Shown: positions 33,653 through 50,295 of the stretch, in pieces | How the letters are laid out: the number at the start of each line of letters is the position of its first letter | Position numbering within the stretch: position 1 is the first letter of the stretch | Assembly: GCA_011090425.1 (NCBI GenBank) | Contig: PHGD01000007.1 | Location: 1 to 64,000 of the forward strand | DNA from: Nitrospira sp. LK70 | GTDB taxonomy: Bacteria > Nitrospirota > Nitrospiria > Nitrospirales > Nitrospiraceae | Length of the DNA stretch: 64,000 nucleotides | Reading direction: 5' to 3' | The notes under the pieces: model-generated | Seen by the model: the letters and a program-made list of their open reading frames with translations, nothing else | Databases searched by the model: none | Told to the model about the DNA's origin: nothing | Program-made: the position numbers and the translations under genes

Positions 33653-36544
33653 TTACGCGGCTGCCTGAGTGATAGGCTGATAGCCCTGCCGGTAGGATTC
33701 GAGGACACGGACGAGTCGTGCGACTTCGAGTTCAAGCTGTGCGTAGACGGGCGGGGCATCGTGGAGCGCGTTGAGGCGGCCGACTGCTTCGAGACGACCG
33801 GCGGTGAGCGCCACCTCAGAGGCGCAAAGATTTCCGGCTGTGCCTTTGAAGCTGTGTGCCATGCGTTCGACGGTGATGGAGTCGGCATCCGCCAGCGCCG
33901 TTCTGATGTCAGCCAGCATAGTTTGGTGACGATCGAGAAACAGGCGGACGAGTTGAGCGAACAACTCACTGTCGCCCCCGATGTTCTGGTACATTCTTGC
34001 AGGATCAAAAATTCCTCTGGTTGGGTCAGAGATGGTGGGGATTGGCTGTTGTTTCCCGGGAACTACCACATTGGGTGGTGCGAGTGCCCAACGTGCCAGT
34101 GTGCTCCGTAGTTCCTCCAGTTTAATTGGCTTGGCGAGATAATCGTCCATCCCGATTGCCAAACAACGCTCGCGATCGCCCTGCATCGCATTGGCGGTGA
34201 CCGCAATGATCGGCAGGTGTCGAGTCGAGTGTGGAACCTTGTCTGAACGATTCGCGCTTCCATCGATCGAGTCACGCGAGGCCACCGACGCTTCACGTTC
34301 CCGAATGCACCGGGTTGCTTCAAATCCATCCATGACGGGCATCTGACAATCCATTAGGATGGCGGCATAGTCTCCCTTGGTGAGCGCAGCCAGCGCCTCT
34401 TTGCCGTTTTCGACGACGTCCGGTTTGTAGCCCAGTTTTTCGACCATCCGCACGGCGAGCTTCTGGTTGATCATGTTGTCTTCCACGACCAAAATGCGCC
34501 GATGTTGCACATGCTCCGCGACCATATGCCTGGTGACGAGTTGAGGTACGACGGGGCATGTCTGAGCGTCCTTCGACGCTTGGCCATCGGGCAAGCCGAG
34601 TACGGTTCGTAGGCAATCGCGTAATTCATCGTGGCGGACTGGTTTCGGCAGGTAGCCCATCGCGCCGGCTTGACGGGCTTGTTCCGCATGACCACGTTGT
34701 AGCATCGAGGTCATCACGACGAGGCGAATCCCTGACCCAGCCGGGTGGCTTTGCAGCTCTCGTGCAAGCTGCAACCCGTCCTTTCCCGGCATGATGACAT
34801 CCAAGATCGCAAGATCGTACGACAGTCCACGCTGCGTTGCCTCGGCGATGCGGTGTAAAGCTGATTCGGCATCCTCCGCGAGCTCGTCGATCATCCCCCA
34901 ACCTGAAACCAGATGGTGGAGGATCAAACGATTCGATTCGTTGTCGTCGACGATCAAGACACGCTTTCCGGTGAGATCCCCGGTCGGAAGAATCGCGCGC
35001 AGAGAATCCGCCTGTTTCTGGAAACGCACGGTGCACCAAAAGGTGCTGCCCTGTCCCTCGGTGCTGCGCACTCCGATCTGTCCACCCATTAATTCCACCA
35101 GTTGCTTGGAAATGGAAAGACCAAGACCGGTCCCCCCGTACTTTCTCGTCGTGGAGCTGTCGGCCTGCACAAACGGACGGAACAGTTTGGCTTGGGTATC
35201 CGGATTGATTCCGATACCGCTGTCCGTGACTTCGAAACGGATGACGGCGGTGTCGGGGAGGTCTTCTTCAAGATAGGCCTGCAGGGTCACCTCGCCCTTC
35301 TCGGTGAACTTCACCGCGTTGGCGACCAGATTGGTGAGGATCTGACGGAGGCGGCCTGGGTCGCCTTTGAGTCCCATCGGAACCGCTGCATGTACCAGTC
35401 CGGTCAGTTCCAGTCCTTTCGTCTCCGCCCGCTTGGCGAATTGTGCCAACACCTGCTCCACCGTGGTTCTTAGATTGAAGTTGAGGCACTCTAGCTCCAG
35501 CTTACCGGCTTCGATCTTGCTGCATTCGAGCACGTCGTTTATCAGCTGCAGGAGCGCTTCACCGCACTGCCGAATGGTCTCCGCGTAGGACTGTTGTTCC
35601 GGCGTCAAGGGCGTCTCCATCAACAGGCTCGTCATACCGATGACCCCATTCATGGGAGTGCGGAGCTCATGACTGACGGTCGCCAGAAATGCCGTCTTGA
35701 CGCGTGCCGATTCCTTGGCCTCGTCCAGAGCTTGGTCCAAACGGTGGTTACTCTGGCGAAGTTGGTCGGCGGATTGTTGGAGCGCTTGCTGTGTCCTGTG
35801 GACGCTCGTCATATCAGTGGCATAGCCTCGCACGAGCCCATGCGTGAGAACCGGGCAGAAGGTCCATGAAAAGCTGGCTTCTTGAAGCACAACTGTCTCA
35901 TCATGAAATACATGGCCTGTTGCTAGACAACCCCGCACGATGTTCGGAAGGGTAGGTGGGGCGACGTTGGGAAATCCTTCGAGGCTGTACCCGAATCGAG
36001 TGAGCAGAGAGAGCATCGCGGGATTGGCATACAGCAGACTCATCTGCTCGTCCAGTTCGATCATCGGTAAGGGACTTTCCTCCGCGATTGCGACCAGCCG
36101 ATCGCGATCTTGTTTCAATTCCAGTTCATGGGACAAGTCCCGAATACTGACAATCAGCACGGTCTTTCCATTGAACATACTGGGCGCGCAAGTCCATTCC
36201 ACTGGAACAGGGCGGGTGGCCTTCCGTAAGAGTAGATGTTGTGTCACAGAAGTCGGGCGGCGGTTATTCAGCACTTCGTTCAGCTGCGCGGTCATGGTGG
36301 TTGTGTCCGACTGGGTGAGCGTCGACCACAGGGATGGAAAGGATCGGATCGTGGAGGAAGAAAACCGTGGTCCAAGCAACCGATGGCCCTCACGGTTAAC
36401 GGCCAATACGGTGAAATCACTGGCGAGGATGACGGTGGCCAGCGGAAGCCCTTCGAGAAGATCCAGGCCGGTGAAGGTCGTCTGAAGCGAGGCTGCAGGC
36501 CGGTGTCGGTTGCGGTTGCGTTTCCGTCCAGCTGGCTTCATCAT
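33653..36544 (-). CDS. Hybrid sensor histidine kinase: PAS-PAS-HisKA-HATPase-REC-REC-Hpt
   Basis: 963 residues and no clear membrane helix, so probably cytoplasmic. Two PAS-like regions (about 25-145 and 150-255) and a coiled coil lead to HisKA (ATVSHELRTPMNGVIGMTSL, near residue 290), then HATPase_c (NLVANAVKFTEKGEV, DSGIGI, GGTGLGLSISKQLVELMGG). Two receivers follow, with LIVDDNES / AILDVIMPGKDGL and LVVEDNMINQKLA / ILMDCQMPVMDG. A C-terminal Hpt domain has its histidine in MAHSFKGTAGNL. This is a full BarA-type phosphorelay in one protein. Its ATG overlaps the stop of the HD-GYP gene (ATGA), so the two are coupled. Confidence 0.93.
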   Translation of the reverse strand: MMKPAGRKRNRNRHRPAASLQTTFTGLDLLEGLPLATVILASDFTVLAVNREGHRLLGPRFSSSTIRSFPSLWSTLTQSDTTTMTAQLNEVLNNRRPTSVTQHLLLRKATRPVPVEWTCAPSMFNGKTVLIVSIRDLSHELELKQDRDRLVAIAEESPLPMIELDEQMSLLYANPAMLSLLTRFGYSLEGFPNVAPPTLPNIVRGCLATGHVFHDETVVLQEASFSWTFCPVLTHGLVRGYATDMTSVHRTQQALQQSADQLRQSNHRLDQALDEAKESARVKTAFLATVSHELRTPMNGVIGMTSLLMETPLTPEQQSYAETIRQCGEALLQLINDVLECSKIEAGKLELECLNFNLRTTVEQVLAQFAKRAETKGLELTGLVHAAVPMGLKGDPGRLRQILTNLVANAVKFTEKGEVTLQAYLEEDLPDTAVIRFEVTDSGIGINPDTQAKLFRPFVQADSSTTRKYGGTGLGLSISKQLVELMGGQIGVRSTEGQGSTFWCTVRFQKQADSLRAILPTGDLTGKRVLIVDDNESNRLILHHLVSGWGMIDELAEDAESALHRIAEATQRGLSYDLAILDVIMPGKDGLQLARELQSHPAGSGIRLVVMTSMLQRGHAEQARQAGAMGYLPKPVRHDELRDCLRTVLGLPDGQASKDAQTCPVVPQLVTRHMVAEHVQHRRILVVEDNMINQKLAVRMVEKLGYKPDVVENGKEALAALTKGDYAAILMDCQMPVMDGFEATRCIREREASVASRDSIDGSANRSDKVPHSTRHLPIIAVTANAMQGDRERCLAIGMDDYLAKPIKLEELRSTLARWALAPPNVVVPGKQQPIPTISDPTRGIFDPARMYQNIGGDSELFAQLVRLFLDRHQTMLADIRTALADADSITVERMAHSFKGTAGNLCASEVALTAGRLEAVGRLNALHDAPPVYAQLELEVARLVRVLESYRQGYQPITQAAA

Positions 36545-37803
36545 GCGGCCCGTGAGAGGGTTTGATCCAGGTGTATCCCAATGTTGACACGTTCTTGGGC
36601 CGGGTCCAAGACACGCAGCACGGTTCGGACCTTGCGGTCGGGAGATGGTGTAGCCAGGTCCACCTCGATAGGCGTGGCATAAGAACCTCCATGTGAGTCG
36701 GTCGTGATTTTTATCAGAGGTTTGAGTCGTTGTTGAGAGTTAACTCCGATGACGACCGCCTGTTCGCCGGTATTGAGCTGGATGAGGCTCCCGACCGGAT
36801 AGACGCCGATGCTTCGAATCATGAGCTCCACAAGAGATTTTGCGAACTGTCCTCGTTCTGCGATCAAGAAGAGCTGCCGAACGGCGTCGTGTGGGATCAT
36901 AGCCGGGCGTGTGCCGCGCCGACTGACCATGCCGTCATAGACATCGACGATGCCGACGATCTGGGCGAGGCGTGAAATCTGGTCGTTGCCTAGACCGGCT
37001 GGAAACCCGCTTCCATCAGCCCGCTCATGATGCTCCCTGACGATACGTAGGACATCTTCATGCATGCCGGGCTGTTCGGAGAGAAGTGCGACGCCCAGCT
37101 TGCAATGCTGTTCGAGAAGGGTCTTATCTTGTCCGCTGCACTCATCCCGTTTACGAACGAGATTGCGCGGGAGCCGGACATATCCGACGTCATGGAGCAG
37201 TGCGCCCATGCCGACCTGTTCTTGAGTCGGTTGATCCAACCCGCTCTCAATGGCCACTACAAGGGACAAGATGCAGGTGTCCAATGCATGAGCCGTCAGG
37301 GAGCGGTCGAAGTGCTTAATCTTCTGGATGGCGACCTGTGTGACCATGACGGCGCGATCGCTGAGAACTTGCCCCAACACGTTCGACACGATGGCTTTGG
37401 TCGCTTCGGGAGAAGGAGGAATTCCCCGTTCAAGCTCCTCGAAGATGTGCTCAACCGCTTCTTGAGCTTGTGCGTAGATTACGGTAACGGAATGATCTTT
37501 GGATTTCACCTCAGCTGTACCTTCGGTTTGTGTTTGGTCCGGAGGAGTTGGAGCATCAGGGCTGGTAGAGTGGTGGCTTGCAGCATGCTGTGTATTCGTC
37601 GAGGATTCCGACGGGAGATCGGACCCTTTGCTGGTATCAATGGTCACCATCTTGATCCCATGCTGTTTCATGAGTTGGATGGTCTGCAGATCCTTGATCA
37701 GCCGTTTATGGGAAAGGAATGGGGTTTGGTACCACGGGACATCCATCTCGATGATGAACATGCCTGGTATGAGCTGCTCGATAGGGATACGTTTTGTCGC
37801 CAT
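36541..37803 (-). CDS. HD-GYP c-di-GMP phosphodiesterase-like protein with DUF3391 N-terminus
   Basis: 420 residues. The N-terminal DUF3391-type part (IPIEQLIPGMFIIEMDVPWY) is followed by an HD-GYP domain: ALLHDVGYVRLPRNLV for the HD site, then IVREHHERADGSGFPAGL for the second signature, then IVDVYDGMVSRRGTRPA. The canonical HDxGK reads HDVGY and GYP reads GFP, so catalysis may be weaker or changed; the metal-binding histidines and aspartates appear kept. Expected reaction: hydrolysis of c-di-GMP. It is first in a two-gene operon with a hybrid kinase, preceded by an excellent sigma-28 box and divergent from a PilZ effector gene. Confidence 0.9.
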   Translation of the reverse strand: MATKRIPIEQLIPGMFIIEMDVPWYQTPFLSHKRLIKDLQTIQLMKQHGIKMVTIDTSKGSDLPSESSTNTQHAASHHSTSPDAPTPPDQTQTEGTAEVKSKDHSVTVIYAQAQEAVEHIFEELERGIPPSPEATKAIVSNVLGQVLSDRAVMVTQVAIQKIKHFDRSLTAHALDTCILSLVVAIESGLDQPTQEQVGMGALLHDVGYVRLPRNLVRKRDECSGQDKTLLEQHCKLGVALLSEQPGMHEDVLRIVREHHERADGSGFPAGLGNDQISRLAQIVGIVDVYDGMVSRRGTRPAMIPHDAVRQLFLIAERGQFAKSLVELMIRSIGVYPVGSLIQLNTGEQAVVIGVNSQQRLKPLIKITTDSHGGSYATPIEVDLATPSPDRKVRTVLRVLDPAQERVNIGIHLDQTLSRAA

Positions 37804-37872
37804 ACGTCTTTGGACTCCAGGTCAGAAGGGTTTCCAGTCGGACGTGCCGACAGAAGGGAGGCTCTATGCCCG

Positions 37873-37900
37873 TTATCGGCGAAGCATGCGCCGAACTTGA
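37873..37900 (-). promoter_or_regulatory. Sigma-28 (FliA) promoter of the HD-GYP/kinase operon
   Basis: On the - strand: TCAAGTTC (37900-37893), 12 bp, GCCGATAA (37880-37873), identical to the FliA consensus at -10. It ends 70 bp before the HD-GYP ATG at 37803. Confidence 0.72.
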
Positions 37901-37970
37901 TCATTCTCCGTGAATCGTGATGCGCTTGAATCAGTTCTGAGCCGATACTCTCCATCGTGTCTGTTCCCCA

Positions 37971-37998
37971 TCAAGATCTGTCTGTGACATTCCGATAG
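37971..37998 (+). promoter_or_regulatory. Possible sigma-28 promoter before the YcgR-like PilZ gene
   Basis: TCAAGATC (37971-37978), 12 bp, TCCGATAG (37991-37998), 48 bp before the PilZ ATG. The -10 differs from the consensus at two positions, but layout and spacing match the flgM box. Divergent from the promoter at 37873-37900. Confidence 0.5.
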
Positions 37999-38046
37999 GG
38001 CTCATCAGGGTTGGTCCATATCAGCCGACTATCCTGGAGGAAGGGC

Positions 38047-38772
38047 ATGAACGAGATTGTCGTGACTGTTCCGCCCGCGGCATCATTCTTATCGGTCGGA
38101 CTTCCTCTCAAAATATCCCTTACGCTTGATCAGCAGAAGGTCACGCACGGCTCGACGCTGCTCGGCTGGAAGGATCACGCATGGCTTGTCTGCGAATGGC
38201 CGATTCAACTCGGCCATGATCAGCCGGTCGCAGCAGGTACTCCGTGCATTGTTAGTTATCTTCTTGACGGTAAGCTGGTCGGTTATCGCAGCGAAATACG
38301 CGATCTGATTACCTCGCCGATCCCCCTGCTGTTCGTTGCGTTTCCAAAGGCGGTGGAAGAAATGCATCTGCGAAAACATCTCCGTGTATCGACCAATGAG
38401 CCGGTCTTGCTGATACGAGCGGATTCCTGCAACGCGTCCGAGTCCGCATTGCCCACCAGCAACTATTTCGGCGGCTTGCTGAAAGACCTCAGCCAGGAGG
38501 GATGCAGTGTGGCGCTGGTGCGAAGACCAGCCTGGCTGTGCCCAGGAGCAACGGTCCGACTCGAATTCGAACTCCCTGGTCTCGGACATATTACGAACCT
38601 CACGAGTGTCGTGAAGAATGCCGACATGCGGGAGGGCTGTGAGATGATCGGCATCGAGTTTCGATTCAATGAACTCGAGTACATCGAATATCGCGGGTGG
38701 GGCGGATCCGTCAGGCAGGCAGTCGAACATTGTGTCTTCCAGAAGGCCGGCGCCTCTTTTGTTGTCCCGTAA
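38047..38772 (+). CDS. YcgR-like PilZ c-di-GMP effector (flagellar brake type)
   Basis: 241 residues from the ATG at 38047 after GGAGGAAGGG. An N-terminal YcgR-type beta domain (about 1-110) precedes a PilZ domain that has both c-di-GMP-binding elements: RKHLRV (RxxxR-type) at the interdomain link and DLSQEGCSVAL (DxSxxG). YcgR proteins bind c-di-GMP and slow the motor at the MotA/FliG interface. The nearby HD-GYP gene and a candidate FliA promoter support a motility role, which is an inference from context. Confidence 0.85.
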   Translation: MNEIVVTVPPAASFLSVGLPLKISLTLDQQKVTHGSTLLGWKDHAWLVCEWPIQLGHDQPVAAGTPCIVSYLLDGKLVGYRSEIRDLITSPIPLLFVAFPKAVEEMHLRKHLRVSTNEPVLLIRADSCNASESALPTSNYFGGLLKDLSQEGCSVALVRRPAWLCPGATVRLEFELPGLGHITNLTSVVKNADMREGCEMIGIEFRFNELEYIEYRGWGGSVRQAVEHCVFQKAGASFVVP

Positions 38773-39040: not shown

Positions 39041-42000
39041 ATGGACAGCGATAATTTCTATATCAATCTGTTCGTGAAGGCACCGCACTGGTCCACGCCT
39101 GAGCCCAACTCGGATGAAGCCGCGCGCTGGAGCAAGATCGCAGCTTTCTTGGAGTATATCTTGCGCCGTGTTCGGCAGCAGGAGCCGAACAAGCAGCTCA
39201 GGATGTTGGACATCGGATGTGGCCGCGGATGGCTCACCAATCTCGCTGCAGGCTATGGTTTCTGTGAGGGCATTGAGCCGGTCGCAGGCGTCGTCGAGTA
39301 TGCGAGCAAGTTGTTTCCCCATCTTCGGTTCGATGGAGGGACGGCGGAGAGCGTCTTGAGGCGGACAGACTTTGAGCCGTACGACGTCGTACTCACATCG
39401 GAGGTCATTGAGCATGTTCCCCATGGGCAAAAAGAAGAGTTTCTCGCGCAACTGGCCAAACTGCTTAAGCCGGACGGCTATCTGGTCCTTACGACGCCGA
39501 GGGGTGAAGTGTGGGAACAGTGGAAGACCATCGCGCCGCCCAATCAACCGGTAGAAGACTGGGTGACCGAAGAGCAACTGCGGAGCCTATTCACTGCGCA
39601 GGGCTTCGTCGAAATGGGACTGGACCGTATTCATGTCGAGGTTCCTGACTTGCGTTATGTGCCGGCGCCCACGCCGGCCGATCTCCGCTCCATGAACTTA
39701 CTCCCAATCTATCAAGTGTGGTGCTGTCGCCGACCCACCGGCCAACGTCCCATTCCCTTTACCCTGCCACCGAAGGTGTCCGTCATTGTCCCGACATACA
39801 ATCGCCCCGATCGTCTGCAGATGGCGCTCGCGAGCCTGGCTGCGCAGACGTATCAGGACTTCGAGGTCATCGTCGTCAATGATGCTGGCTGTGACGTGGC
39901 GTCCGTCGTGGCGGCCTGTGTCGATCGGCACCGCATCACGACCATTACCCACGATAGAAACCGCGGCTTGGCTGCAGCCCGCAACAGCGGACTCCGTGCG
40001 GCGAAGGGTGACTACATCGCCTATCTTGATGACGATGATCGTTATTTTCCTCATCATCTTGAGACTCTTGTCGACTATCTGGATTGTCGTGAATGCCGTG
40101 TCGCGTACACTGACGCCTGGCGAGTGCAGGAAGAACAGAACGACGGCGAGTATGTCGAGACCGGGCGCGATGTTCCGTACTCCTTTGAATTCAGACCGGC
40201 GGATTTGCTGGTGTCCAACTACTTTCCGGTTCTCTGCGTGATGCACGACCGTGCCTGTCTCGATGAGGTGGGCTTATTTGATGAATCTCTCTTCGCTCAC
40301 GAAGATTGGGATCTCTGGATCCGCATGGCGACTCGATTCCCGTTTAAACACCTGCCGGTCAGGACTGCCGAGTTCACCTGGCGGAATGACGGTACATCCA
40401 TGACGAGCGGGACCAAGGCGACCTATCGTCGCACCACTGAAATCATTTATCGAAAATATGCACCTTACGCAGAACGGATTGCCGGCGTCCGGGAAGCCCA
40501 GCAGCGACATCTTGAAAATCTCCAAGCGTCGATGCCGGTGAAGTCTTACGTCTGTTCCATCATCATCCCGGTATGGAACAAGGTGGAACTGACCAGGCAA
40601 TGCCTGACCGCGCTCGCCTCCAATACGACCGATATCTTGTTCGAAGTGATCGTCGTCGACAATGGATCCACGGATGGGACTGGGGAATTCTTAGGGGAGC
40701 TCAAGGGCGATGTGCAAATCCTCCGGAACGATCAGAACCTCGGGTTTGCCAAGGCGTGTAATCAAGGAGCTCGGGCGGCCCGCGGTAAGTACCTGGTGTT
40801 CTTGAACAACGACACGATCCCTCAACCGCACTGGCTCAAGCCGTTGGTCAGCGAAGTGGATGAGCATCAGGAAGTTGGGGTTGTGGGCAGCAAACTGCTC
40901 TTCGCGGATGGATCTGTCCAGCATGCGGGGGTGGTGTTCATGCGGTCACATCGGAGTGCCTATCATATCTATCGGACCGTTGCTAGTAACGCTTCTGCGG
41001 TGAATCAGCGGCGCGAGTTCCAGGCGGTTACTGCGGCTTGTCTGCTCGTTCGTCATGAGATCTTTGATGGGGTACAGGGGTTCGACGAAGGTTTCATTAA
41101 TGGTTTCGAAGATGTGGATCTCTGTCTGAAGATTCGGGAAAAGGGGCACCATGTGATCTACCAACCCCGCAGCCTGTTGTATCACTTGGAAAGCCAAACT
41201 CCTGGTCGAAAAGAGCACGAGGTGCATAACAGCCGTCGGCTCCAAGAACGGTGGGGCGATCATTGGTGGCTGGGGGATGAGGATCTCCACTATCACAGGG
41301 ACGGGTTTAAACTGGTCGGCGGTTCTCAAGACGCAGAGTTTGCCACACAATTAAAACCGATGGGAGATATATGCGATCGTGCTGCTTGGGCTCATGTCGC
41401 AGCCGCGCAAGCAGCTGCGCTGAAACAGGATTGGTCGGCTGTCAAACGTGAGCTCCGATTGGTGGACCACTGGCCGGGTGACCGATTCGTGCTGTCCTGG
41501 GGCGCCATGGTGGCTGAGCGGATGAAAGAGCCCGTCCTACGGGTCCGGTTCCTCTCGCGCTATTTGGAATTGGTTGATGCGCCTAGCGAGCGACTCGCGC
41601 TGATCCGTACGTTGCTCGAACAGAAGAACTTGGTGGATGCAGAGGAACACCTCCGGATGCTGCTTGTGTCTTCCCCGGATCATGCGGAAGGACTGTTGAT
41701 AAAAGGCATTCTGTGCATGCAGCGGGAACAATATGAGCAAGCCGAGCGCTCGTTCGCTTCGGCGATGCGGGAGGGAGCGGAGCGCAGGAAATGTCTGATG
41801 GGGGTGGGAATGGCGGCAATGGGAAGGGCTTACACACAAGGAGCCTGGGAGCGGTTTCTTGAGGTGCTGGACGAAAACCCCGACGATGCCGAGGCGATCC
41901 ACTGGCTGCTCCGTGCAGGCACGGCACAAAACCGTTGGCCAGAGTTGGGTGAACAATTGCATCGATATGTGACGAGAAATCCTGGTGACGTAGCCGTGCG

Positions 42001-42163
42001 ATTTGCCTTCGCCGGGGTCCTATTGCGTGACGAACGGGTCGAAGCGGCCCGACGTGAATATGATGCGCTTCAGACGCTTGCACCAGGTTACGACGGGTTG
42101 GACCAGCTGGGCCGGGCGATTGCAGGAAAACAAGCCGTGATCCTGACGGAAGCAGCTCATTGA
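39041..42163 (+). CDS. Multidomain methyltransferase / double GT2 glycosyltransferase / TPR protein
   Basis: 1,040 residues. Domains in order: a SAM methyltransferase (motif I LDIGCGRGWLT at residues 56-66, VVLTSEVIEHVPHGQKEEFL); a first GT2 domain from ~246 (VSVIVPTYNRPDRLQMALAS, VNDAG, acidic YLDDDD near 330); a second GT2 domain from ~505 (CSIIIPVWNKVELTRQCLTA, VVDNGSTDGTGEFLG, FLNNDTIPQPHWL); and from ~780 a helical TPR-like tail. It probably elongates and methylates a glycan in the cytoplasm. Position between motility regulators and fliC suggests flagellin as acceptor. Head gene of a tight cluster. Three activities in one chain is unusual. Confidence 0.85.
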   Translation: MDSDNFYINLFVKAPHWSTPEPNSDEAARWSKIAAFLEYILRRVRQQEPNKQLRMLDIGCGRGWLTNLAAGYGFCEGIEPVAGVVEYASKLFPHLRFDGGTAESVLRRTDFEPYDVVLTSEVIEHVPHGQKEEFLAQLAKLLKPDGYLVLTTPRGEVWEQWKTIAPPNQPVEDWVTEEQLRSLFTAQGFVEMGLDRIHVEVPDLRYVPAPTPADLRSMNLLPIYQVWCCRRPTGQRPIPFTLPPKVSVIVPTYNRPDRLQMALASLAAQTYQDFEVIVVNDAGCDVASVVAACVDRHRITTITHDRNRGLAAARNSGLRAAKGDYIAYLDDDDRYFPHHLETLVDYLDCRECRVAYTDAWRVQEEQNDGEYVETGRDVPYSFEFRPADLLVSNYFPVLCVMHDRACLDEVGLFDESLFAHEDWDLWIRMATRFPFKHLPVRTAEFTWRNDGTSMTSGTKATYRRTTEIIYRKYAPYAERIAGVREAQQRHLENLQASMPVKSYVCSIIIPVWNKVELTRQCLTALASNTTDILFEVIVVDNGSTDGTGEFLGELKGDVQILRNDQNLGFAKACNQGARAARGKYLVFLNNDTIPQPHWLKPLVSEVDEHQEVGVVGSKLLFADGSVQHAGVVFMRSHRSAYHIYRTVASNASAVNQRREFQAVTAACLLVRHEIFDGVQGFDEGFINGFEDVDLCLKIREKGHHVIYQPRSLLYHLESQTPGRKEHEVHNSRRLQERWGDHWWLGDEDLHYHRDGFKLVGGSQDAEFATQLKPMGDICDRAAWAHVAAAQAAALKQDWSAVKRELRLVDHWPGDRFVLSWGAMVAERMKEPVLRVRFLSRYLELVDAPSERLALIRTLLEQKNLVDAEEHLRMLLVSSPDHAEGLLIKGILCMQREQYEQAERSFASAMREGAERRKCLMGVGMAAMGRAYTQGAWERFLEVLDENPDDAEAIHWLLRAGTAQNRWPELGEQLHRYVTRNPGDVAVRFAFAGVLLRDERVEAARREYDALQTLAPGYDGLDQLGRAIAGKQAVILTEAAH

Positions 42164-42245
42164 TTCGCCATCTCGTTCCGGCTGAGGGGTGTCAAAGCTA
42201 GGACCTGAAAAAACCCCCTCAATCGGTCTAGATCACGCAAGTGAC

Positions 42246-43406
42246 ATGGGAAGGATGCCACGCACGCTAATCATACAATTAGCGAGACTGGGAGATCTCC
42301 TGCAATCGCTGCCGGCGATCGCGCAGCTCCACGCGCGTCAACCCGAGACGCAATTCGATCTGCTCTGTCCGTCTCATCTTACCGATGTGGGACGTCTGCT
42401 GCCGGGCATCGAGAAAGTCCGCCCGTGGGATGGAGCGGCCTGGCAGCGACGTGCGATGGACGCCCAGCAGAATTTGCGAGCAGAGCATCTTGTGGAGGTC
42501 GATACAACATTGATGGCATTGGCGCCGGACCGGTACGACTATGCCTATGTTCTCAATCAACATCCTCGGGCCCTTTTGGCGGCTTCTTTGCTCGCTCGAG
42601 AAGTGAAAGGACCATTTCTCTACGGGCCGCTTAGCGAGGTGCTGACACCGTGGGCAAGCTACATTCGCGATGTGGCGCAGCGGCGTCTGGGACGGCGCGT
42701 GCATCTGGCTGATGCTTTCTGCGGGCTCTGTGGAGTCTCTCCGCCAGGGTCTGTCGTCATGCTCGATCCTCCGACCGTCCGATTGCCTGAGGATTTGGAA
42801 CCTATTGGTAAACACGCTGCTCCGTGGATTGCGCTCATCGTGGGAGCGGGGGAGACCGAGCGGTTTGTGCCCACGGGGGTGTGGCGTCGATTGATGACCT
42901 TATTGCTTTCATGCATGCCGCAAAGCCGTATCGTACTTGTCGGAACCGAACGCGAACGAGCCGCAGAGATTCAAGCGCCGTTGCCTTCGTCGGCTCTGGG
43001 TCGGATTTGGGACACGACAGGTCGCACCTCGCTGTCGCAGCTTGCCGCCGTTCTTGCTCGCTGCCATCGAGTCGTCGGTTCGGACACTGGTCCCCTGCAT
43101 CTCGCTGCGGCGCTCGGCAGGCCGGTTATCGGTTGGTATTTTGCGCGGGCACGGGTCCATGAAACGGGACCCTACGGTTTCCATCATGTCGTGTGGCAGG
43201 CCGAAGACATGATGGGTGAGATCTGGCCGGTCGACGAAACTATCGCCGCGATGTGTGAGCAAGGGCACCATGCACCGGTCGGCTGGAGTGTATGGACGAG
43301 CCACTGCGATGCATGGGGCGCCTATTATGCGCTGGCCGGCCAATCAGCCGTTCCGCCGCCCGAACGTGAAGCGCTCTGGCATGAACTGGAGACGGCCCTC
43401 TCATGA
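42246..43406 (+). CDS. GT9 (heptosyltransferase-like) glycosyltransferase
   Basis: 386 residues from the ATG at 42246; an upstream GTG at 42189 and an ATG at 42255 are alternatives, since none has a strong ribosome site. The ADP-heptose:LPS heptosyltransferase signature opens the protein (RTLIIQLARLGDLLQSLPAI), and the C-terminal domain has the nucleotide-sugar site with SDTGPLHLAAALGRPVIGWY. In this cluster it more likely adds a sugar to flagellin than to LPS, by context only. It ends in an ATGA overlap with the next gene. Confidence 0.82.
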   Translation: MGRMPRTLIIQLARLGDLLQSLPAIAQLHARQPETQFDLLCPSHLTDVGRLLPGIEKVRPWDGAAWQRRAMDAQQNLRAEHLVEVDTTLMALAPDRYDYAYVLNQHPRALLAASLLAREVKGPFLYGPLSEVLTPWASYIRDVAQRRLGRRVHLADAFCGLCGVSPPGSVVMLDPPTVRLPEDLEPIGKHAAPWIALIVGAGETERFVPTGVWRRLMTLLLSCMPQSRIVLVGTERERAAEIQAPLPSSALGRIWDTTGRTSLSQLAAVLARCHRVVGSDTGPLHLAAALGRPVIGWYFARARVHETGPYGFHHVVWQAEDMMGEIWPVDETIAAMCEQGHHAPVGWSVWTSHCDAWGAYYALAGQSAVPPPEREALWHELETALS

Positions 43407-45220
43407 ACTATCTGGCGCAGAATCTTGAAGCCCTTCGCAAGCGGTATCCAGCGCTTGCCGAAAATACGCAGGAGAACTCTGGTGGTCTGCTGACGATTGT
43501 GCCGTCTCGTGAGGGGAGTCCATCGGCCGCGCATGAAGGACGATGGGTTCACAGCGGATACGATCCGCGTCAAGAAGCTCAAGGATGGGCCAAAGCTCAA
43601 TTGCGTGAATGGAAAGCCAGCGAACTCGGGGTCGTCCTTGGTGTCGGCTTGCTGTATCACGTCGAAGCGTTGGTCGCTCTCAAGCCGCAAGGGGTGATGC
43701 TGGCGGTTGTCGTGCCCAATGTGGCAGAGCTCAAAGACGCCGTCTCGACGAGGCCTATGGCGGCCTGGATCCACCGAGTCGAATGGCTGTGGGGAACGCC
43801 TGCGGCGATGGCGGAGGAGTTGGCCGCAAGGTCGGAGCCGCTCCGGTTCATGACGTATGGACCGGCTGCTCGTCTGCAGGCCGACGCTCATCGGGATTTG
43901 GAAGCGGGGCTCCGACGGATGGTCTCGGCCAAGCAGACGGGCCGACTCCATGTTGCCGTCGTGGGGCCGATCTACGGCGGCTCGCTCCCGATCGCTCACC
44001 ACACGGTCGCAGCACTGGAATCCCTGGGCCATCGGGTCAGCTGGCTGGATCAAAGTCCCCATCGGATAAGCTACGAAACATTCGGGGTTTATCACGAGCC
44101 GCGCCACCGCCTCACCATGCAAAGCCGGTTTGCCGACGTGCTGAGCTTAGGCGTTGTGACGCATCTTGCCGAAGATCCGCCGGATCTTGTGTTGGCGCTT
44201 GCCCAGGCACCGATGAATCTTGCGGTGCTCGAGCATCTGCGCAAGAAGAAATTTCTCACCGCGATGTGGTTCGTTGAAAACCACCGGCATCTGACCTACT
44301 GGCAGCAGTTGGCCGGCGGGTATGACTATTGGTTTGTCATCCAGGAAGGCTCCTGCTTCGAATCGCTGAAGCGGGCGGGAGCTCGCCATGTCAGCTATCT
44401 GCCGATGGCGGCCGAGCCAAACCTGCATCGGCCGATTGTGTTGACTGCAGCCGACCAGGACGAGTATGGGGCCGACGTGTCCTTCGTAGGGGCGGGGTAT
44501 GCCAACCGGCGCACCGTTCTTCCGCGATGGTTATCGAATGATTGGTCGTTCAAGCTCTGGGGCAATGAATGGGAAGGCGCAGAGGGCTTCACCTCGGTGC
44601 TGCAGCGCGGCGGTGACCGTATCGATACAGAGACCTGCATCAAAGTGTTCAATGCCACCTCCATCAACCTGAATCTTCACTCCTATGCCGGCGACGGACT
44701 CGATCCGGAGGCTGACTTCGTCAACCCTCGGACATTCGAATTGGCTGCTTGCGGTGCATTTCAGCTGGTCGACGAGCGATCACTCATGCCGGATCTTTTT
44801 GCCGCCGATGAGCTGGTCCGGTTCACTGCGGTGGCTGAAGTGCCGTTGCTTATCCGTGCCTGGCTCGATGATGTGCCCGGACGACGCGCGATTGCTGAGG
44901 CCGCGCGTCGTCGTGTGTTCGCGCAGCACACGTACCAACATCGCATGAAGGAACTCTTGACTACCATCGGTGTGCATCAACCTGATCGAATCGGAGCCAT
45001 TATGCGCGGGGACCGCAACGCCGGCGCGTTGACGCAGCGTGAGAATACACCACCCGAGCTTGCAGCGCTCCTTCGCCGATTTCCGTCGGATCAACGAGTG
45101 GAGCTCAAGGAGGTAGCGGCTCAGATCAAGACGAAAGGTGCCGACCGAGAATTGGCGCGAGAGGAGCTGCTGGTTCTGATGCTGGATAGTTATCGAGTAG
45201 AAACGAGAGATCTCGTATGA
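43403..45220 (+). CDS. CgeB-like glycosyltransferase with DUF3880-type N-terminus
   Basis: 605 residues; the ATG overlaps the previous stop (ATGA). The N-terminal ~185 residues resemble no family I know well. The centre has VAVVGPIYGGSLPIAHHTVA and a DUF3880-like stretch (TAMWFVENHRHLTYWQQLAG, YDYWFVIQEGSCFESLKRAG). The C-terminal Glyco_trans_1_2-like part follows (DVSFVGAGYANRRTVLPRWL, NLNLHSYAGDGLDPEADFVN, PRTFELAACGAFQLVDERSL). This is the GT-B CgeB/maturation type found in flagellin glycosylation islands. Translationally coupled on both sides. Confidence 0.8.
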   Translation: MNYLAQNLEALRKRYPALAENTQENSGGLLTIVPSREGSPSAAHEGRWVHSGYDPRQEAQGWAKAQLREWKASELGVVLGVGLLYHVEALVALKPQGVMLAVVVPNVAELKDAVSTRPMAAWIHRVEWLWGTPAAMAEELAARSEPLRFMTYGPAARLQADAHRDLEAGLRRMVSAKQTGRLHVAVVGPIYGGSLPIAHHTVAALESLGHRVSWLDQSPHRISYETFGVYHEPRHRLTMQSRFADVLSLGVVTHLAEDPPDLVLALAQAPMNLAVLEHLRKKKFLTAMWFVENHRHLTYWQQLAGGYDYWFVIQEGSCFESLKRAGARHVSYLPMAAEPNLHRPIVLTAADQDEYGADVSFVGAGYANRRTVLPRWLSNDWSFKLWGNEWEGAEGFTSVLQRGGDRIDTETCIKVFNATSINLNLHSYAGDGLDPEADFVNPRTFELAACGAFQLVDERSLMPDLFAADELVRFTAVAEVPLLIRAWLDDVPGRRAIAEAARRRVFAQHTYQHRMKELLTTIGVHQPDRIGAIMRGDRNAGALTQRENTPPELAALLRRFPSDQRVELKEVAAQIKTKGADRELAREELLVLMLDSYRVETRDLV

Positions 45221-46884
45221 TGCGGCAAGTCCTGATCATCAACATCACCCGGATGGGCGATCTCGTCCAGATGGGCACTCTACTGTCACGTCTCCGAGAC
45301 GAATGGCCCGGCGTGGCGGTAGATCTTGTGGTCGATCGACAATTCGCGCCGGTGGCTTCCATGCTGAGCGGCTTGCGTGACATCATCGCGTATGATTTCC
45401 ACGCGTTGATTGATGAGAGCCGGGTCTGCGCCAAAGATACCGTTGCACTCTATCGAGAGGTCGCATCGTGGGCCGACGAATTGCACAAGTGCCGCTACGA
45501 TCGCATCATCAACCTCACATTCAACCGATCCAGTGCGCTCCTGACTGAATATGTCGGCGCGCACGATATCCGTGGCGCGCGGAGCGCTTGGGACGGCGGT
45601 ACGGTCATCAACAATCCCTGGATGGTGTATTTTACCGATATTCATCAGATCCGCCGGATTAATCGATTCAACCTCGTCGACGTCTATGCAATGGCTGGGA
45701 GCAGGCCAGGCTCGTTTGCACCATTGTGTGTGACGACGCCGGCCGAAAATACAGACTGGGGGAGGCGCTTTCTGTCGAGTCCGGGAGGGCCGGATGGCAA
45801 ATGGATCGCGGTGCAGGCAGGGGCGAGCGACGTAATGAAGGCCTGGCGGCCAGAGCATTTCGGCGTGGCACTGGCCCGCTTCAGCAAGCATTGGGATGGC
45901 GGCATTCTGTTCATCGGATCGCCATCGGAACGGGACGCGATCGCTCATGTCATCCGGACGTATCGAGAGACGGGTGGGCGCAGCACAATCAAGAATGCCG
46001 CTGGGCAAACGACGTTGCCGCAGCTTGTCGCTCTCCTGGCGGACTGTCGGGTATTGCTCACAAACGATACAGGACCGATGCATTTGGCCGTTGGGGTGCA
46101 GACTCCGGTCATTGATCTGTCCGTCGGCCATGTGGATTTCCAGGAGACCGGTCCACACGGGCCAGGACATTGGGTTCTGCAGCCGGATCTCGAGTGTGCG
46201 CCCTGCGGTTTTGACCAGGTGTGTTCGCACCACGCTTGTAAGGATCGGCTGCCGATCGACGTGGTTGCCGCTGTCATGCAGCATGTGGTGGGGCAGGGAC
46301 CGTTGCCCGTGACTGTACCGGGCTATCGTTTGTACCGATCAGGCGTCGATGCGGATCAATTGGGCACTTTTGAACTCGTCTCCGGCCGTGAAGATGCAAT
46401 AGAGACCTGGTATGCGGCATTCTGGCGCCGCCGCTGGTATGAGTCGTTCACCGGTCGGACGAGCCGGCTGCCGGCACTCAACAGTGTTGCACCGGACACC
46501 GGCGAGGGATTGGCCTGTATGAGGACGATGATGCCGTTGCTCGACAGCCTCTGCCGACGGGCCGACCATATCGTCCGGCTCACCGGGCAAATGCCGCTTC
46601 CTGTCCAAGCCATTCAAGCGTTACAGCTGACACAAGCGGAGGAACGTCAGAAGGTGGCTCAGGCCGGAAGAGCGACGTGGGCCACAAGACCGCTGATCAC
46701 GGCCGCGCTCCGCCTGTTGCATCAGGACAATGTGCAAGGGCTGGAGCGAATGGCGAGGCATCACGCGGCGGCGTATCATCGCTGGCGCCACGAGACGAAG
46801 GTCGTGGCGTCCTACCTCACATCCGCGCGAGGGGCGCCCGCTTCGAGTGCAAACGCACCTGTGTCCTACGTCGGTATCAAATGA
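45217..46884 (+). CDS. Second GT9 (heptosyltransferase-like) glycosyltransferase
   Basis: 555 residues, about 200 longer than a standard GT9 enzyme. The start overlaps the previous stop (ATGATG). The N-terminal signature is present (VLIINITRMGDLVQMGTLLS), as is the C-terminal donor site (LTNDTGPMHLAVGVQTPVID). After residue ~345 comes a Cys-containing segment (PDLECAPCGFDQVCSHHACK), frequent in GT9 enzymes, then a ~170-residue helical extension of unknown role. It is the last recognisable transferase of the cluster. Confidence 0.82.
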   Translation: MMRQVLIINITRMGDLVQMGTLLSRLRDEWPGVAVDLVVDRQFAPVASMLSGLRDIIAYDFHALIDESRVCAKDTVALYREVASWADELHKCRYDRIINLTFNRSSALLTEYVGAHDIRGARSAWDGGTVINNPWMVYFTDIHQIRRINRFNLVDVYAMAGSRPGSFAPLCVTTPAENTDWGRRFLSSPGGPDGKWIAVQAGASDVMKAWRPEHFGVALARFSKHWDGGILFIGSPSERDAIAHVIRTYRETGGRSTIKNAAGQTTLPQLVALLADCRVLLTNDTGPMHLAVGVQTPVIDLSVGHVDFQETGPHGPGHWVLQPDLECAPCGFDQVCSHHACKDRLPIDVVAAVMQHVVGQGPLPVTVPGYRLYRSGVDADQLGTFELVSGREDAIETWYAAFWRRRWYESFTGRTSRLPALNSVAPDTGEGLACMRTMMPLLDSLCRRADHIVRLTGQMPLPVQAIQALQLTQAEERQKVAQAGRATWATRPLITAALRLLHQDNVQGLERMARHHAAAYHRWRHETKVVASYLTSARGAPASSANAPVSYVGIK

Positions 46885-46898
46885 GAGGAGACTGGCCC

Positions 46899-47429
46899 AT
46901 GCAGATTACGCTCGATCAAGACCACTGGGAAGTCGACGCGCCGCTGACGATGGAACATGTGCTGACGGAGCTTAGTGAACGCGCTCATGCTCGAGCTCGT
47001 ATCGTCACCAAGTTGCAGCTCGACCATCGTACGATTACAGACCGTGACTTGGACCCTGTATTTCTCGCTGAATCGGTCGGGCGCTTTCGGCAGCTGACGG
47101 CCGTGTCGCAGCCGATGCCGGATCTCATACGGGCCGCCGAAGGGTCCATCAGGAAATACGCAGAGGCTCTGCGCAGCGAGGGGGCGTCCTTGCTCTCGCC
47201 GTTGCGATTCGGACCATTGCCGCTTTCGGCGCTCGACGCCTGGCTGGGACAGCTGGCAGACTATCTCGAGTTCGTAGATGGGACTTCGGTCACTATGCAG
47301 GTAGGGACCGGAGCCTCCGACGTCGCGCCTTGGGTCCAACAGCTTGTGGAGGCGCGGGCAGCTCAAGACGTGGTTCGTTTGGCGGATCTCTTGGAGTATG
47401 AAATTTTGCCTCGGTTGGATATCCGATGA
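46899..47429 (+). CDS. Protein of unknown function between glycosylation genes and fliC
   Basis: 176 residues from the ATG at 46899 after AGAGGAG; a longer frame overlapping the transferase is a shadow. It is mostly helical and acidic, with no membrane helix, signal or motif I know (MEHVLTELSERAHARARIVT, LGQLADYLEFVDGTSVTMQV). Spacing of 14 bases to the transferase gene shows co-transcription. Size and composition could fit a flagellin-specific adaptor or chaperone, but this is speculation from position only. Confidence 0.6.
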   Translation: MQITLDQDHWEVDAPLTMEHVLTELSERAHARARIVTKLQLDHRTITDRDLDPVFLAESVGRFRQLTAVSQPMPDLIRAAEGSIRKYAEALRSEGASLLSPLRFGPLPLSALDAWLGQLADYLEFVDGTSVTMQVGTGASDVAPWVQQLVEARAAQDVVRLADLLEYEILPRLDIR

Positions 47430-47491: not shown

Positions 47492-47518
47492 TCAAGTCCC
47501 ACTTGATTCAGCCGATAA
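47492..47518 (+). promoter_or_regulatory. Sigma-28 (FliA) promoter of fliC
   Basis: TCAAGTCC (47492-47499), 11 bp, GCCGATAA (47511-47518). The -10 is a perfect match to the FliA consensus. It implies a transcript start near 47525 and a leader of about 93 nt. Confidence 0.8.
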
Positions 47519-47617: not shown

Positions 47618-48445
47618 ATGTCACTTATTGTCAACAACAATCCTGCATCCATCTCGGCCCAGCGCAATCTGGGTGTGAGTTCGGCAAGCTTGAGCCGCTC
47701 GGTAGAGCGTCTGTCGTCCGGGCTCCGCATCACTCGCGCCGCCGACGATGCGGCCGGTCTCGGCCTATCCGAAACCTTACGGGCGCACATTCGCAGCATC
47801 AACCAGGCCGTTCGGAACTCTTCGGACGGGATTAGCTTAACGCAGATCGCCGACGGAGCGGCTGCCACTATCGGCAATCTTATGGCTCGCCTGCGCGAGT
47901 TAGCCTCACAATCATCCAGCGGCACGGTGGGCGCTACCGAACGATCGTATATCGATCAGGAGTTCGTGGCGCTGCGTTCGGAAATCGACCGCATTGCGCA
48001 GGTGACGGAGTTCAATGGGCAAGCGTTGACCAGCGGCAGCACGATCAGTTTCACGATGCAGGTGGGTTTCAAGAGCGGTACCGGTAACACGTTGACGATG
48101 GATCTGAACCAACTGACGATTTCCGCGTTGGGTATCAGTAGCGTGAACGTGTCCACAGCGGCTAATGCACAGAGCGCGCTGAGCAACATCGACAGCGCCA
48201 TCAGCGCCGTGGCAACCGCACGCGCCGAGTATGGGTCGCTCCAGAATCGATTCGAAGCTACGATCGCAAATCTGGAGGTTTCGAGTGAAAATCTTACGGC
48301 AGCCGAATCGCGGATCCGCGATGCGGATATTGCCTATGAAACCTCACAATTCACAAAGAACCAGGTTCTGGTGCAGACAGGTATTGCCGTGCTTGCGCAG
48401 GCGAATACGTTGCCGCAGCAGGCGCTGGCCTTACTCCGAGGGTAA
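47618..48445 (+). CDS. fliC: Flagellin FliC
   Basis: 275 residues, a short flagellin with terminal D0/D1 domains and almost no variable centre. N-terminal signature SLIVNNNPASISAQRNLGVS and SVERLSSGLRITRAADDAAG; C-terminal SRIRDADIAYETSQFTKNQV and LAQANTLPQQALALLRG. The middle is Ser/Thr-rich and could carry O-glycans, in line with the transferase cluster directly upstream. Very strong ribosome site AAGGAGGAAGGGG. Single flagellin gene in the window; a hairpin follows the stop. Confidence 0.97.
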   Translation: MSLIVNNNPASISAQRNLGVSSASLSRSVERLSSGLRITRAADDAAGLGLSETLRAHIRSINQAVRNSSDGISLTQIADGAAATIGNLMARLRELASQSSSGTVGATERSYIDQEFVALRSEIDRIAQVTEFNGQALTSGSTISFTMQVGFKSGTGNTLTMDLNQLTISALGISSVNVSTAANAQSALSNIDSAISAVATARAEYGSLQNRFEATIANLEVSSENLTAAESRIRDADIAYETSQFTKNQVLVQTGIAVLAQANTLPQQALALLRG

Positions 48446-48891: not shown

Positions 48892-50295
48892 ATGGCCACG
48901 ATAAGTTTTGGCGGTCTGGGAAACGGACTGGACTTCGGCCAGGTCGTCGATCAATTGGTCAAGGCGTCGCGCATCCCCGTCGATCGGCTCAACGCCAAAA
49001 AGGACGACCTGAATTCGAAATCGACCGACTATGCCACACTGAACACGAAGTTGATCGGCCTTCAGAGCGCGGCCGACAAGATGCGTTTGCCCTCCACCTT
49101 CGACCGCACCAGTGTGTCGGTCAGCGACACAACCGTGCTCACGGCAACGGGGTCGTCGTCGGCAGTTCCGGGAAGCTATACGGTCAAGGTCACGCAACTG
49201 GCGCAATCCCACCAGATCACGAGCAGGGCGGCGAAGGCGGTTGCGTCCACGACGACCGATATCGTGAGCGGCGGCTCGGGGACGTTCACCTTCCGCGTGG
49301 GCAGCGGCACGAATCAAACCGTCAGTCTGGACGCCACCGCGACAATCGAAGATTTCAAATCCGCCATCAATGATCTTGGTGCCGGCGTCACCGCATCAGT
49401 CGTGAACACGGGGAGTGAGGGTTCTCCCGCCTACCGGCTGGTGCTGACCGCCACTAGTACCGGTGCCACCAACGAGGTCACCATTGTTGCGGACAACACC
49501 GACCTCGATTTTCTAAACGGCACCGGAACCGGAGGAACTGATACTCTTCAAGCGGCTCAGGACGCCGTGATCGTTGTGGGCGATCCCACCCTGAATCCGC
49601 TGACATTCCAACGAAGCACCAACAATATTACCGATGCTATTACCGATGTGACGTTGACGCTGACTAAGATGACCGGCTTAAGTACGATCTCGGTCAATGT
49701 CGCACGGGATATGTCGGCCGTCCAAACCAACATCAAAGCTCTGGCGACGGCGTACAATGAGGTGGTCAAGTTCATCAACGAGCGGACTACCTACGACATC
49801 ACGACCAAGAAGGGCGGAATCTTCTTCAACGAGCCGACGGTGCGGACAGTGCTCGGCCAGGTAAGGACGGCACTCTCCTCCGTCGTGCCTGGATCGACCG
49901 CCTATGTTTCGGTGGGTGACGTCGGGTTCAAGACGGAGCGCGACGGATCGGTGACGGTCGATGATGCCAAGCTGAATGCGGCGCTCAGTTCTAATTACAC
50001 GGGCGTCAAAAATCTGTTCGTGAATCAAACCGGCAGCGTCGGAGTCGCCCAGCTCCTCAATGCAGCGGTGGATACCCTCGATGATATTGAATCCGGAGCG
50101 CTCACGCTCCGAAAACGAGGCCTCACCGACCAGATTTCGGATGTGACGGACGAGATTGCCCGGAAAGAAGACCTCATCTCGCAGTATGAAGAACGGCTCC
50201 GCCGCCAGTACGCGGCGCTCGATGGGCTCCTGAGGCAAATGCAAAGCCAGATCGGCTTCCTTCAGTCCAACTCCTCACTAACTGGGAAAAATTAG
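48892..50295 (+). CDS. fliD: Flagellar filament cap protein FliD (HAP2)
   Basis: 467 residues. FliD caps the filament tip and directs flagellin folding. The N-terminus is typical (ISFGGLGNGLDFGQVVDQLV, RIPVDRLNAKKDDLNSKST). A Flagellin_IN-like module lies at about residues 125-210 (SGTFTFRVGSGTNQTVSLDA). The C-terminal helices follow (EDLISQYEERLRRQYAALDG, LLRQMQSQIGFLQ). It lies 20 bases after flaG and 21 bases before fliS. Confidence 0.95.
   Translation: MATISFGGLGNGLDFGQVVDQLVKASRIPVDRLNAKKDDLNSKSTDYATLNTKLIGLQSAADKMRLPSTFDRTSVSVSDTTVLTATGSSSAVPGSYTVKVTQLAQSHQITSRAAKAVASTTTDIVSGGSGTFTFRVGSGTNQTVSLDATATIEDFKSAINDLGAGVTASVVNTGSEGSPAYRLVLTATSTGATNEVTIVADNTDLDFLNGTGTGGTDTLQAAQDAVIVVGDPTLNPLTFQRSTNNITDAITDVTLTLTKMTGLSTISVNVARDMSAVQTNIKALATAYNEVVKFINERTTYDITTKKGGIFFNEPTVRTVLGQVRTALSSVVPGSTAYVSVGDVGFKTERDGSVTVDDAKLNAALSSNYTGVKNLFVNQTGSVGVAQLLNAAVDTLDDIESGALTLRKRGLTDQISDVTDEIARKEDLISQYEERLRRQYAALDGLLRQMQSQIGFLQSNSSLTGKN

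Follow-up and report, generated by a model that had tools for sequence, protein, structure and literature searches.

A conserved gene cassette that probably glycosylates the short flagellin of Nitrospira

Directly upstream of the flagellin gene fliC of Nitrospira sp. LK70 lie five genes, here called G1 to G5, that encode a fusion protein of methyltransferase, glycosyltransferase family 2 (GT2) and tetratricopeptide repeat (TPR) modules, two family 9 glycosyltransferases (GT9), a CgeB-like transferase, and one small protein. They are contained in a 64,000-nucleotide stretch of contig PHGD01000007.1 (assembly GCA_011090425.1), referred to as the window. Sequence comparison suggests that this cassette is likely dedicated to cytoplasmic O-glycosylation of the adjacent flagellin, a short protein consisting of domains D0 and D1 only. 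The cassette occurs with short flagellins and never with long ones, and it is therefore very likely to coat the flagellum with sugar. Nitrospira are dominant nitrite oxidizers and complete ammonia-oxidizing (comammox) bacteria. In the literature searched, mostly outside subscription journals, no flagellin modification in Nitrospira was described, nor was there a prior description of the cassette, of a GT9 enzyme acting on flagellin, or of a CgeB-like protein with a Maf domain. The glycosylation route thus seems to be undescribed.

Association with the flagellin type

The distribution of the cassette was followed in 147 genomes of the family with G5 as the marker. Short flagellins (open frame below ~350 amino acids (aa); ~275-300 aa) are encoded by 88 of these genomes and long flagellins (~620-650 aa) by 13, while 46 are without a full flagellin match. 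The preliminary description of the locus had proposed co-occurrence with fliC as a check, and among the family genomes the association of G5 with the short flagellin is perfect. The gene is present in 88/88 short-flagellin genomes, 0/13 long-flagellin genomes, and 1/46 of the others, where it is cut by the contig end (Fisher p ~1e-16 under an assumption of independence that these genomes do not satisfy). True relatives of G3 are distributed over the flagellin types in the same manner.

Long flagellins are accompanied by a different set of genes. In a genome-wide search, the Maf domain (PF01973) gives a strong match in 13/13 long-flagellin genomes and in 0/88 short-flagellin genomes, and the two systems are therefore alternatives. 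In the long-flagellin loci, fliC is preceded by transferase and sugar genes. At the locus of genome G050 (L053), these encode NeuB, NeuC, a LegB-like dehydratase, PseB, and a TPR-tailed Maf protein.

The long-flagellin system is present in G050, although this genome is from the window's genus. Colinearity with the window extends over both flanks of its locus, where most genes are 70-95% identical and flgK and flgL are unusually diverged (56% and 51%). The stretch in between, which starts just past a PilZ gene and runs to the new fliS, shares 67-99% identity with the genes of G028, a genome of another genus. A remnant of the old fliS (residues 35-130) survives beyond the swapped block (L177, G050:C20, ~117.8-118.1 kb of the contig). 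As the foreign block sits inside conserved flanks, the exchange took in the flagellin and the glycosylation genes as a single unit.

The association with short flagellins could be a matter of shared ancestry with no functional meaning. The genomes are related, and the short flagellin is found in most of the window's genus and in all sampled genomes of genus g18 that have a full flagellin match. Both states nevertheless occur inside genus g9 and inside the window's genus, and the block exchange in G050 also speaks against ancestry, which is extremely improbable as the sole explanation.

Gene organization

The open reading frames (ORFs) and Pfam matches agree with the gene content given in the preliminary description, namely a fusion, a GT9, a CgeB-like protein, a second GT9, and an unknown gene before fliC (Table 1). 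The three genes that it reported as joined by ATGA overlaps are G2, G3, and G4, linked via two such overlaps; in the ORF listing the junctions from G1 to fliC are 25 bp, ATGA (G2/G3), ATGA (G3/G4), 14 bp, and 188 bp. It also correctly noted that the cassette lacks a sugar-nucleotide synthesis gene, as none was found among the five genes in Pfam and NCBIfam scans. The longest ORF for G5 opens at an upstream GTG (46677), and the true start was placed at 46899 because of the homologues and a GAGGAG ribosome-binding site. Catalytic motifs are conserved in the cassette, DxD-like in the GT2 domains and NDTGPMH in GT9. No cassette protein has a hydrophobic stretch of the membrane-anchor type (highest 19-residue mean 2.0).

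Table 1. Coordinates of the cassette, its modules, and the adjoining flagellin gene in the window.
Feature	Position	Strand	Description	Basis or remark
G1	39041..42163	+	methyltransferase-GT2a-GT2b-TPR fusion, 1040 aa	Pfam; architecture of relatives
G1 methyltransferase module	39041..39736	+	~aa 1-232	Methyltransf_23; missing in L037, L038, L040, L041, L048-L050, L052
G1 GT2a module	39758..40540	+	~aa 240-500; LDDDD motif; variable among relatives	
G1 invariant core	40541..42130	+	GT2b (~aa 501-770, NND motif) and TPR tail (~aa 847-1030)	
G2	42189..43406	+	GT9-family transferase, 405 aa, GTG start	PF01075
G3	43403..45220	+	Maf-type N-terminal domain (aa 1-195) and CgeB-like GT-B transferase, 605 aa	PF13524, PF12996, hhalign to Maf
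G4	45217..46884	+	GT9 (aa 1-360) and conserved beta-hairpin/helical C-terminal domain (aa ~365-539), 555 aa	PF01075, AlphaFold model, VIA-align
G5	46899..47429	+	small conserved protein, 176 aa; predicted ubiquitin-like beta-grasp (1-72) and four-helix bundle (73-173)	
Sigma-28-type promoter	47492..47518	+	TCAA-N15-GCCGATAA	in the G5-fliC gap
fliC	47618..48445	+	short flagellin, 275 aa, presumed substrate	Flagellin_N aa 5-141, Flagellin_C aa 188-273

The flagellin is so short, and so fully covered by its two Pfam domains, that no room is left for domains D2 and D3. Serine and threonine residues conserved in FliC do not pinpoint the acceptor sites. The promoter motif of fliC occurs with no more than 2 of its 12 positions mismatched in 69/71 upstream regions versus 17/600 control windows, and the region upstream of G1 showed neither a sigma-54 nor a sigma-28 site. 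Since fliC has its own promoter, separate transcription of the cassette and fliC is possible, and the transferases may be made before the flagellin.

Conservation across Nitrospirota

In stretches fetched from whole genomes, the order and strand of G1-G2-G3-G4-G5-fliC-flaG-fliD-fliS are kept in 20/20 Nitrospiraceae relatives, and in most of these the gene content upstream of G1 differs from that of the window. The preserved order and place of the five genes is therefore more than chance. The G3 alignment was also scanned against named genomes, and the best 80 of 362 related stretches were retained. These 80 comprise only Nitrospira or Nitrospiraceae-type records, two of them labeled Nitrosospira. 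The order is identical at every named locus with DNA reaching far enough, including those of N. moscoviensis (NZ_CP011801.1) and Ca. N. defluvii (FP929003.1). The sister family f2 retains the order G3-G4-G5-fliC, with extra transferases alongside in some cases.

Small proteins of other Nitrospirota classes are matched weakly by the G5 profile, in the C-terminal part only. Where the loci reach far enough, these distant G5-like genes mostly stand directly behind a G4-like GT9 gene and a G3-like gene (exceptions are L166 and L167), and motA/motB or fliM are nearby at several loci. The distant G5-like gene is 12-29 kb from a main flagellin in 9/9 genomes with both on one contig, and the flagellins of these genomes are mostly 280-306 aa long. 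Given this link to short flagellins, the G3-G4-G5 core and its tie to the short flagellin seem ancient in the phylum. Homology of the distant G5-like proteins over their full length was considered and is unsupported, as ~75 C-terminal residues align and a call of relatedness needs the trio context.

The locus had been termed a flagellin glycosylation island. Flagellin glycosylation stands on strong, albeit circumstantial, evidence from co-occurrence, the block swap, and the Maf-type N-terminal domain of G3. The term island does not stand. No sugar-nucleotide genes are at the locus, and its distribution is not patchy, with G5 in all of the short-flagellin genomes of the family. The cassette is rather a conserved core flagellar module whose variation is confined to the N-terminal modules of G1.

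Domain architecture of the cassette proteins

G1 has the Pfam domains Methyltransf_23, two Glycos_transf_2, and TPR_19. The GT2b-TPR portion is kept in all of ~90 homologues, with the methyltransferase, GT2a, and further GT-B modules gained or lost, and the longest chains reach ~2160 aa. GT2b aligns to Listeria GmaR (E 1.6e-7), a GT2-TPR protein that transfers N-acetylglucosamine onto flagellin and also acts as an antirepressor (PMC9638930). In Caulobacter FlmG, the TPR domain by itself binds flagellins (PMC7591256). A flagellin-recruiting role of the C-terminal repeats of G1 would be in keeping with both proteins.

The likeness to GmaR also raises the possibility that G1, G5, or both are chiefly regulators coupling flagellin expression to assembly, with glycosylation secondary. 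G1 has the same layout of a GT2 domain followed by TPR as GmaR, in which transferase and antirepressor are combined (PMC9638930), and G5 is small, helical, and adjoins fliC. However, ~270 aa follow GT2b in G1 compared to ~460 aa in GmaR (PMC9638930), which, judged by length, would leave no space for the linker and antirepressor domains. Unlike GmaR, the G1 family can also carry several additional transferase or methyltransferase modules per chain and has neighboring partner transferases. A mainly regulatory role is very unlikely, as it leaves four motif-conserved transferase genes unexplained and fliC has its own sigma-28-type promoter.

G3 matches DUF3880 (PF12996) and Glyco_trans_1_2 (PF13524) in Pfam. 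Its residues 1-195 share homology with the N-terminal portion of Maf from the long-flagellin loci (hhalign probability 97.5-98.8). A distant G3 homologue, L158, matches the curated family Maf_flag10_N (PF20157; E 2.9e-9), and the G3 of the window has no match to PF20157 in the Pfam scan. The MptE-like catalytic domain PF01973 is absent from G3 and from the whole genome of the window. Matches of the N-domain profile to HIV capsid (E 0.2-0.8) were dismissed as chance.

G2 and G4 are both GT9-type proteins. The SDTGPxH motif of G2 is conserved across 76 sequences, and the NDTGxxH motif of G4 (NDTGPMH, N283-H289) is invariant in 43. The AlphaFold model of G4 has the GT-B fold of GT9, followed by a conserved helical domain, so that both fold and motif place it in this family. 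In VIA-align comparisons, the model aligns with Veillonella GT9, WaaF, and WaaC (3tov, 1psw, 2gt1) at Z 25-27 and with the protein heptosyltransferase TibC at Z 14.7. An invariant set of four cysteines (327, 330, 336, 341) has a spacing unlike that of TibC (C339, C342, C358, C370; PMC4358343). The N-terminal beta-barrel of autotransporter heptosyltransferases is not seen in the G4 model, which opens directly with a GT-B lobe, and TibC aligns with G4 only from TibC residue 95.

G5 has no Pfam or NCBIfam match. Its model (predicted local distance difference test score 88.7) combines a ubiquitin-like beta-grasp with a four-helix bundle, and fold searches returned only generic ubiquitin-like and helical-bundle matches, so no function is inferred from the fold. 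The family is uncharacterized, and a place in flagellin glycosylation would supply its first role. G5 resembles the C-terminal domain of G4 in helix pattern, and homology of the two was rejected (hhalign probability 0.1).

Sugar supply and lipopolysaccharide genes

The transferases could instead make lipopolysaccharide (LPS) core, O-antigen, or exopolysaccharide, their adjacency to fliC being incidental. GT9 and GT2 enzymes are typical for surface polysaccharides, and the best NCBIfam matches of G2 and G4 are LPS heptosyltransferases. These matches are below the cut-offs (76.5 versus 134.6 bits for G4; 82.6 versus 185.3 bits for G2), and for comparison the genuine heptosyltransferase II of the same genome scores 201. 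This genome has five other GT9 genes, of which three lie within ~5 kb, behind waaA, and a fourth is on the same contig. One of the waaA-side genes encodes heptosyltransferase II fused to GmhB (heptose bisphosphatase), above the curated cut-offs for both parts. Furthermore, the cassette is lost or swapped along with fliC, and its linkage to short flagellin genes persists in distant classes. A role in surface polysaccharide is accordingly rated as highly unlikely. The heptosyltransferase II-GmhB fusion is 586 aa long (L171:6668-8428, G000:C123).

An HldE kinase domain is encoded on a contig other than that of the waaA-side GT9 genes. With heptose synthesis genes present elsewhere in the genome, ADP-heptose should be available. 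The LPS heptosyltransferase and ADP-heptose genes, which the preliminary description had suggested looking for, are consistent with separate roles of the two sets of GT9 enzymes. A genome-wide search found no Maf protein in the window's genome, and its sole NeuB-family match is a DAHP synthase.

Proposed mechanism and relation to known systems

In the proposed mechanism, the TPR tail of G1 and the Maf-type N-domain of G3 would bind unfolded flagellin prior to export. The invariant set of GT2b, G2, G3, and G4 would assemble a short inner glycan on serine or threonine. Lineage-specific capping or extension of this glycan may fall to the variable part of G1, its N-terminal methyltransferase and additional GT2 or GT-B domains. 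G5 is a candidate non-enzymatic adaptor or chaperone. Shared pools would supply the sugar donors, and the likeliest one for G2 and G4 is ADP-heptose, which is made for LPS. At the filament surface, the glycan may substitute for the absent outer flagellin domains.

Several points weigh against dedicated glycosylation by the cassette. The usual substrate of GT9 enzymes is LPS. No mass spectrometry or genetics on any cassette member was found in the literature. Many of the compared genomes are metagenome-assembled, and the set as a whole lacks phylogenetic independence. In sister family f2, the fetched stretches of 2/4 loci showed no G1, and therefore not every part is obligatory.

The transferase genes adjoin the flagellin gene and are conserved with it, as at other flagellin glycosylation loci. 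Most likely, the cassette acts like these loci, and it falls outside the Maf, FlmG, and autotransporter-heptosyltransferase families by the features that define those families. As in the Maf/nonulosonate systems of Campylobacter, Aeromonas, and Geobacillus, it lies directly upstream of fliC, and G3 shares the Maf N-terminal domain. The Maf system of relatives occupies the same position and likewise has a TPR tail. Unlike Maf systems, the cassette is without an MptE-like domain, NeuB, NeuC, or PseB; has GT9, GT2, and a CgeB-like GT-B protein; and is partnered with a short flagellin. FlmG is also a TPR-transferase fusion for which flagellin recognition by TPR has been proposed, but its TPR is N-terminal and it uses a GT-B domain and pseudaminic acid, whereas G1 has a C-terminal TPR and GT2 (GT-A) domains. 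The fgt1 and fgt2 transferase genes of Pseudomonas syringae are likewise upstream of fliC, and Fgt1 adds rhamnose to serine (PMC3927599). That system differs in having two transferases and a separate viosamine island, and no GT9, Maf-N-CgeB protein, or G5 is described there. The autotransporter heptosyltransferases TibC and AAH resemble G4 in a GT9-like fold, which they use on protein as G4 is proposed to do, and four cysteines lie in the C-lobe. G4 differs from them in lacking the N-terminal beta-barrel, in cysteine spacing, in a fold closer to LPS heptosyltransferases (Z 25), and in neighboring fliC and not an autotransporter gene.

A more far-reaching proposal is tentative and rather doubtful as a whole. 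It would make the cassette a pathway of the whole phylum Nitrospirota, separate from the Maf/nonulosonate and Fgt systems. GT9 enzymes of the heptosyl type would modify protein, G5 would present flagellin to the transferases as a ubiquitin-like and helical adaptor, the glycan would replace D2/D3, and this solution and that of outer protein domains with nonulosonates would replace each other in complete blocks. If true, protein-directed GT9 chemistry would reach beyond autotransporters. The strict either/or of short flagellin with the cassette and long flagellin with Maf/nonulosonates offers a natural test of whether glycans replace outer flagellin domains.

Neighboring genes and other observations

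Upstream of the cassette (window 33653-38772) are genes for a hybrid histidine kinase, an HD-type cyclic di-GMP phosphodiesterase, and a YcgR-like PilZ protein, which are retained in the closest relatives and in G050. The fliS remnant of G050 is in frame behind an excisionase-like helix-turn-helix fragment. Within the nonulosonate-making locus of G050, a BNR-repeat (sialidase-like, PF13088) protein is encoded between Maf and the long fliC (L053:9595-10761), and a B12-binding radical SAM protein is encoded in the same block. ORFs of comparable size are at the position of the BNR-repeat gene in L054, L058, L059, L060, and L061. A methyltransferase-Maf-TPR fusion (L055:4944-8504) parallels the methyltransferase-GT2-GT2-TPR layout of the window, and the Maf protein of L056 is similar in length. 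Genome G041 of the window's genus (99% complete, 8 contigs) has one weak FlgL-like Flagellin_N match (E 6e-16), no FliC match, and no cassette. The length of FliD follows that of the flagellin, with ~450-470 aa beside short FliC (467 aa at window 48892-50295) and ~770-790 aa beside long FliC (775 aa at L053:13330-15657). FlgL is also highly variable in length.

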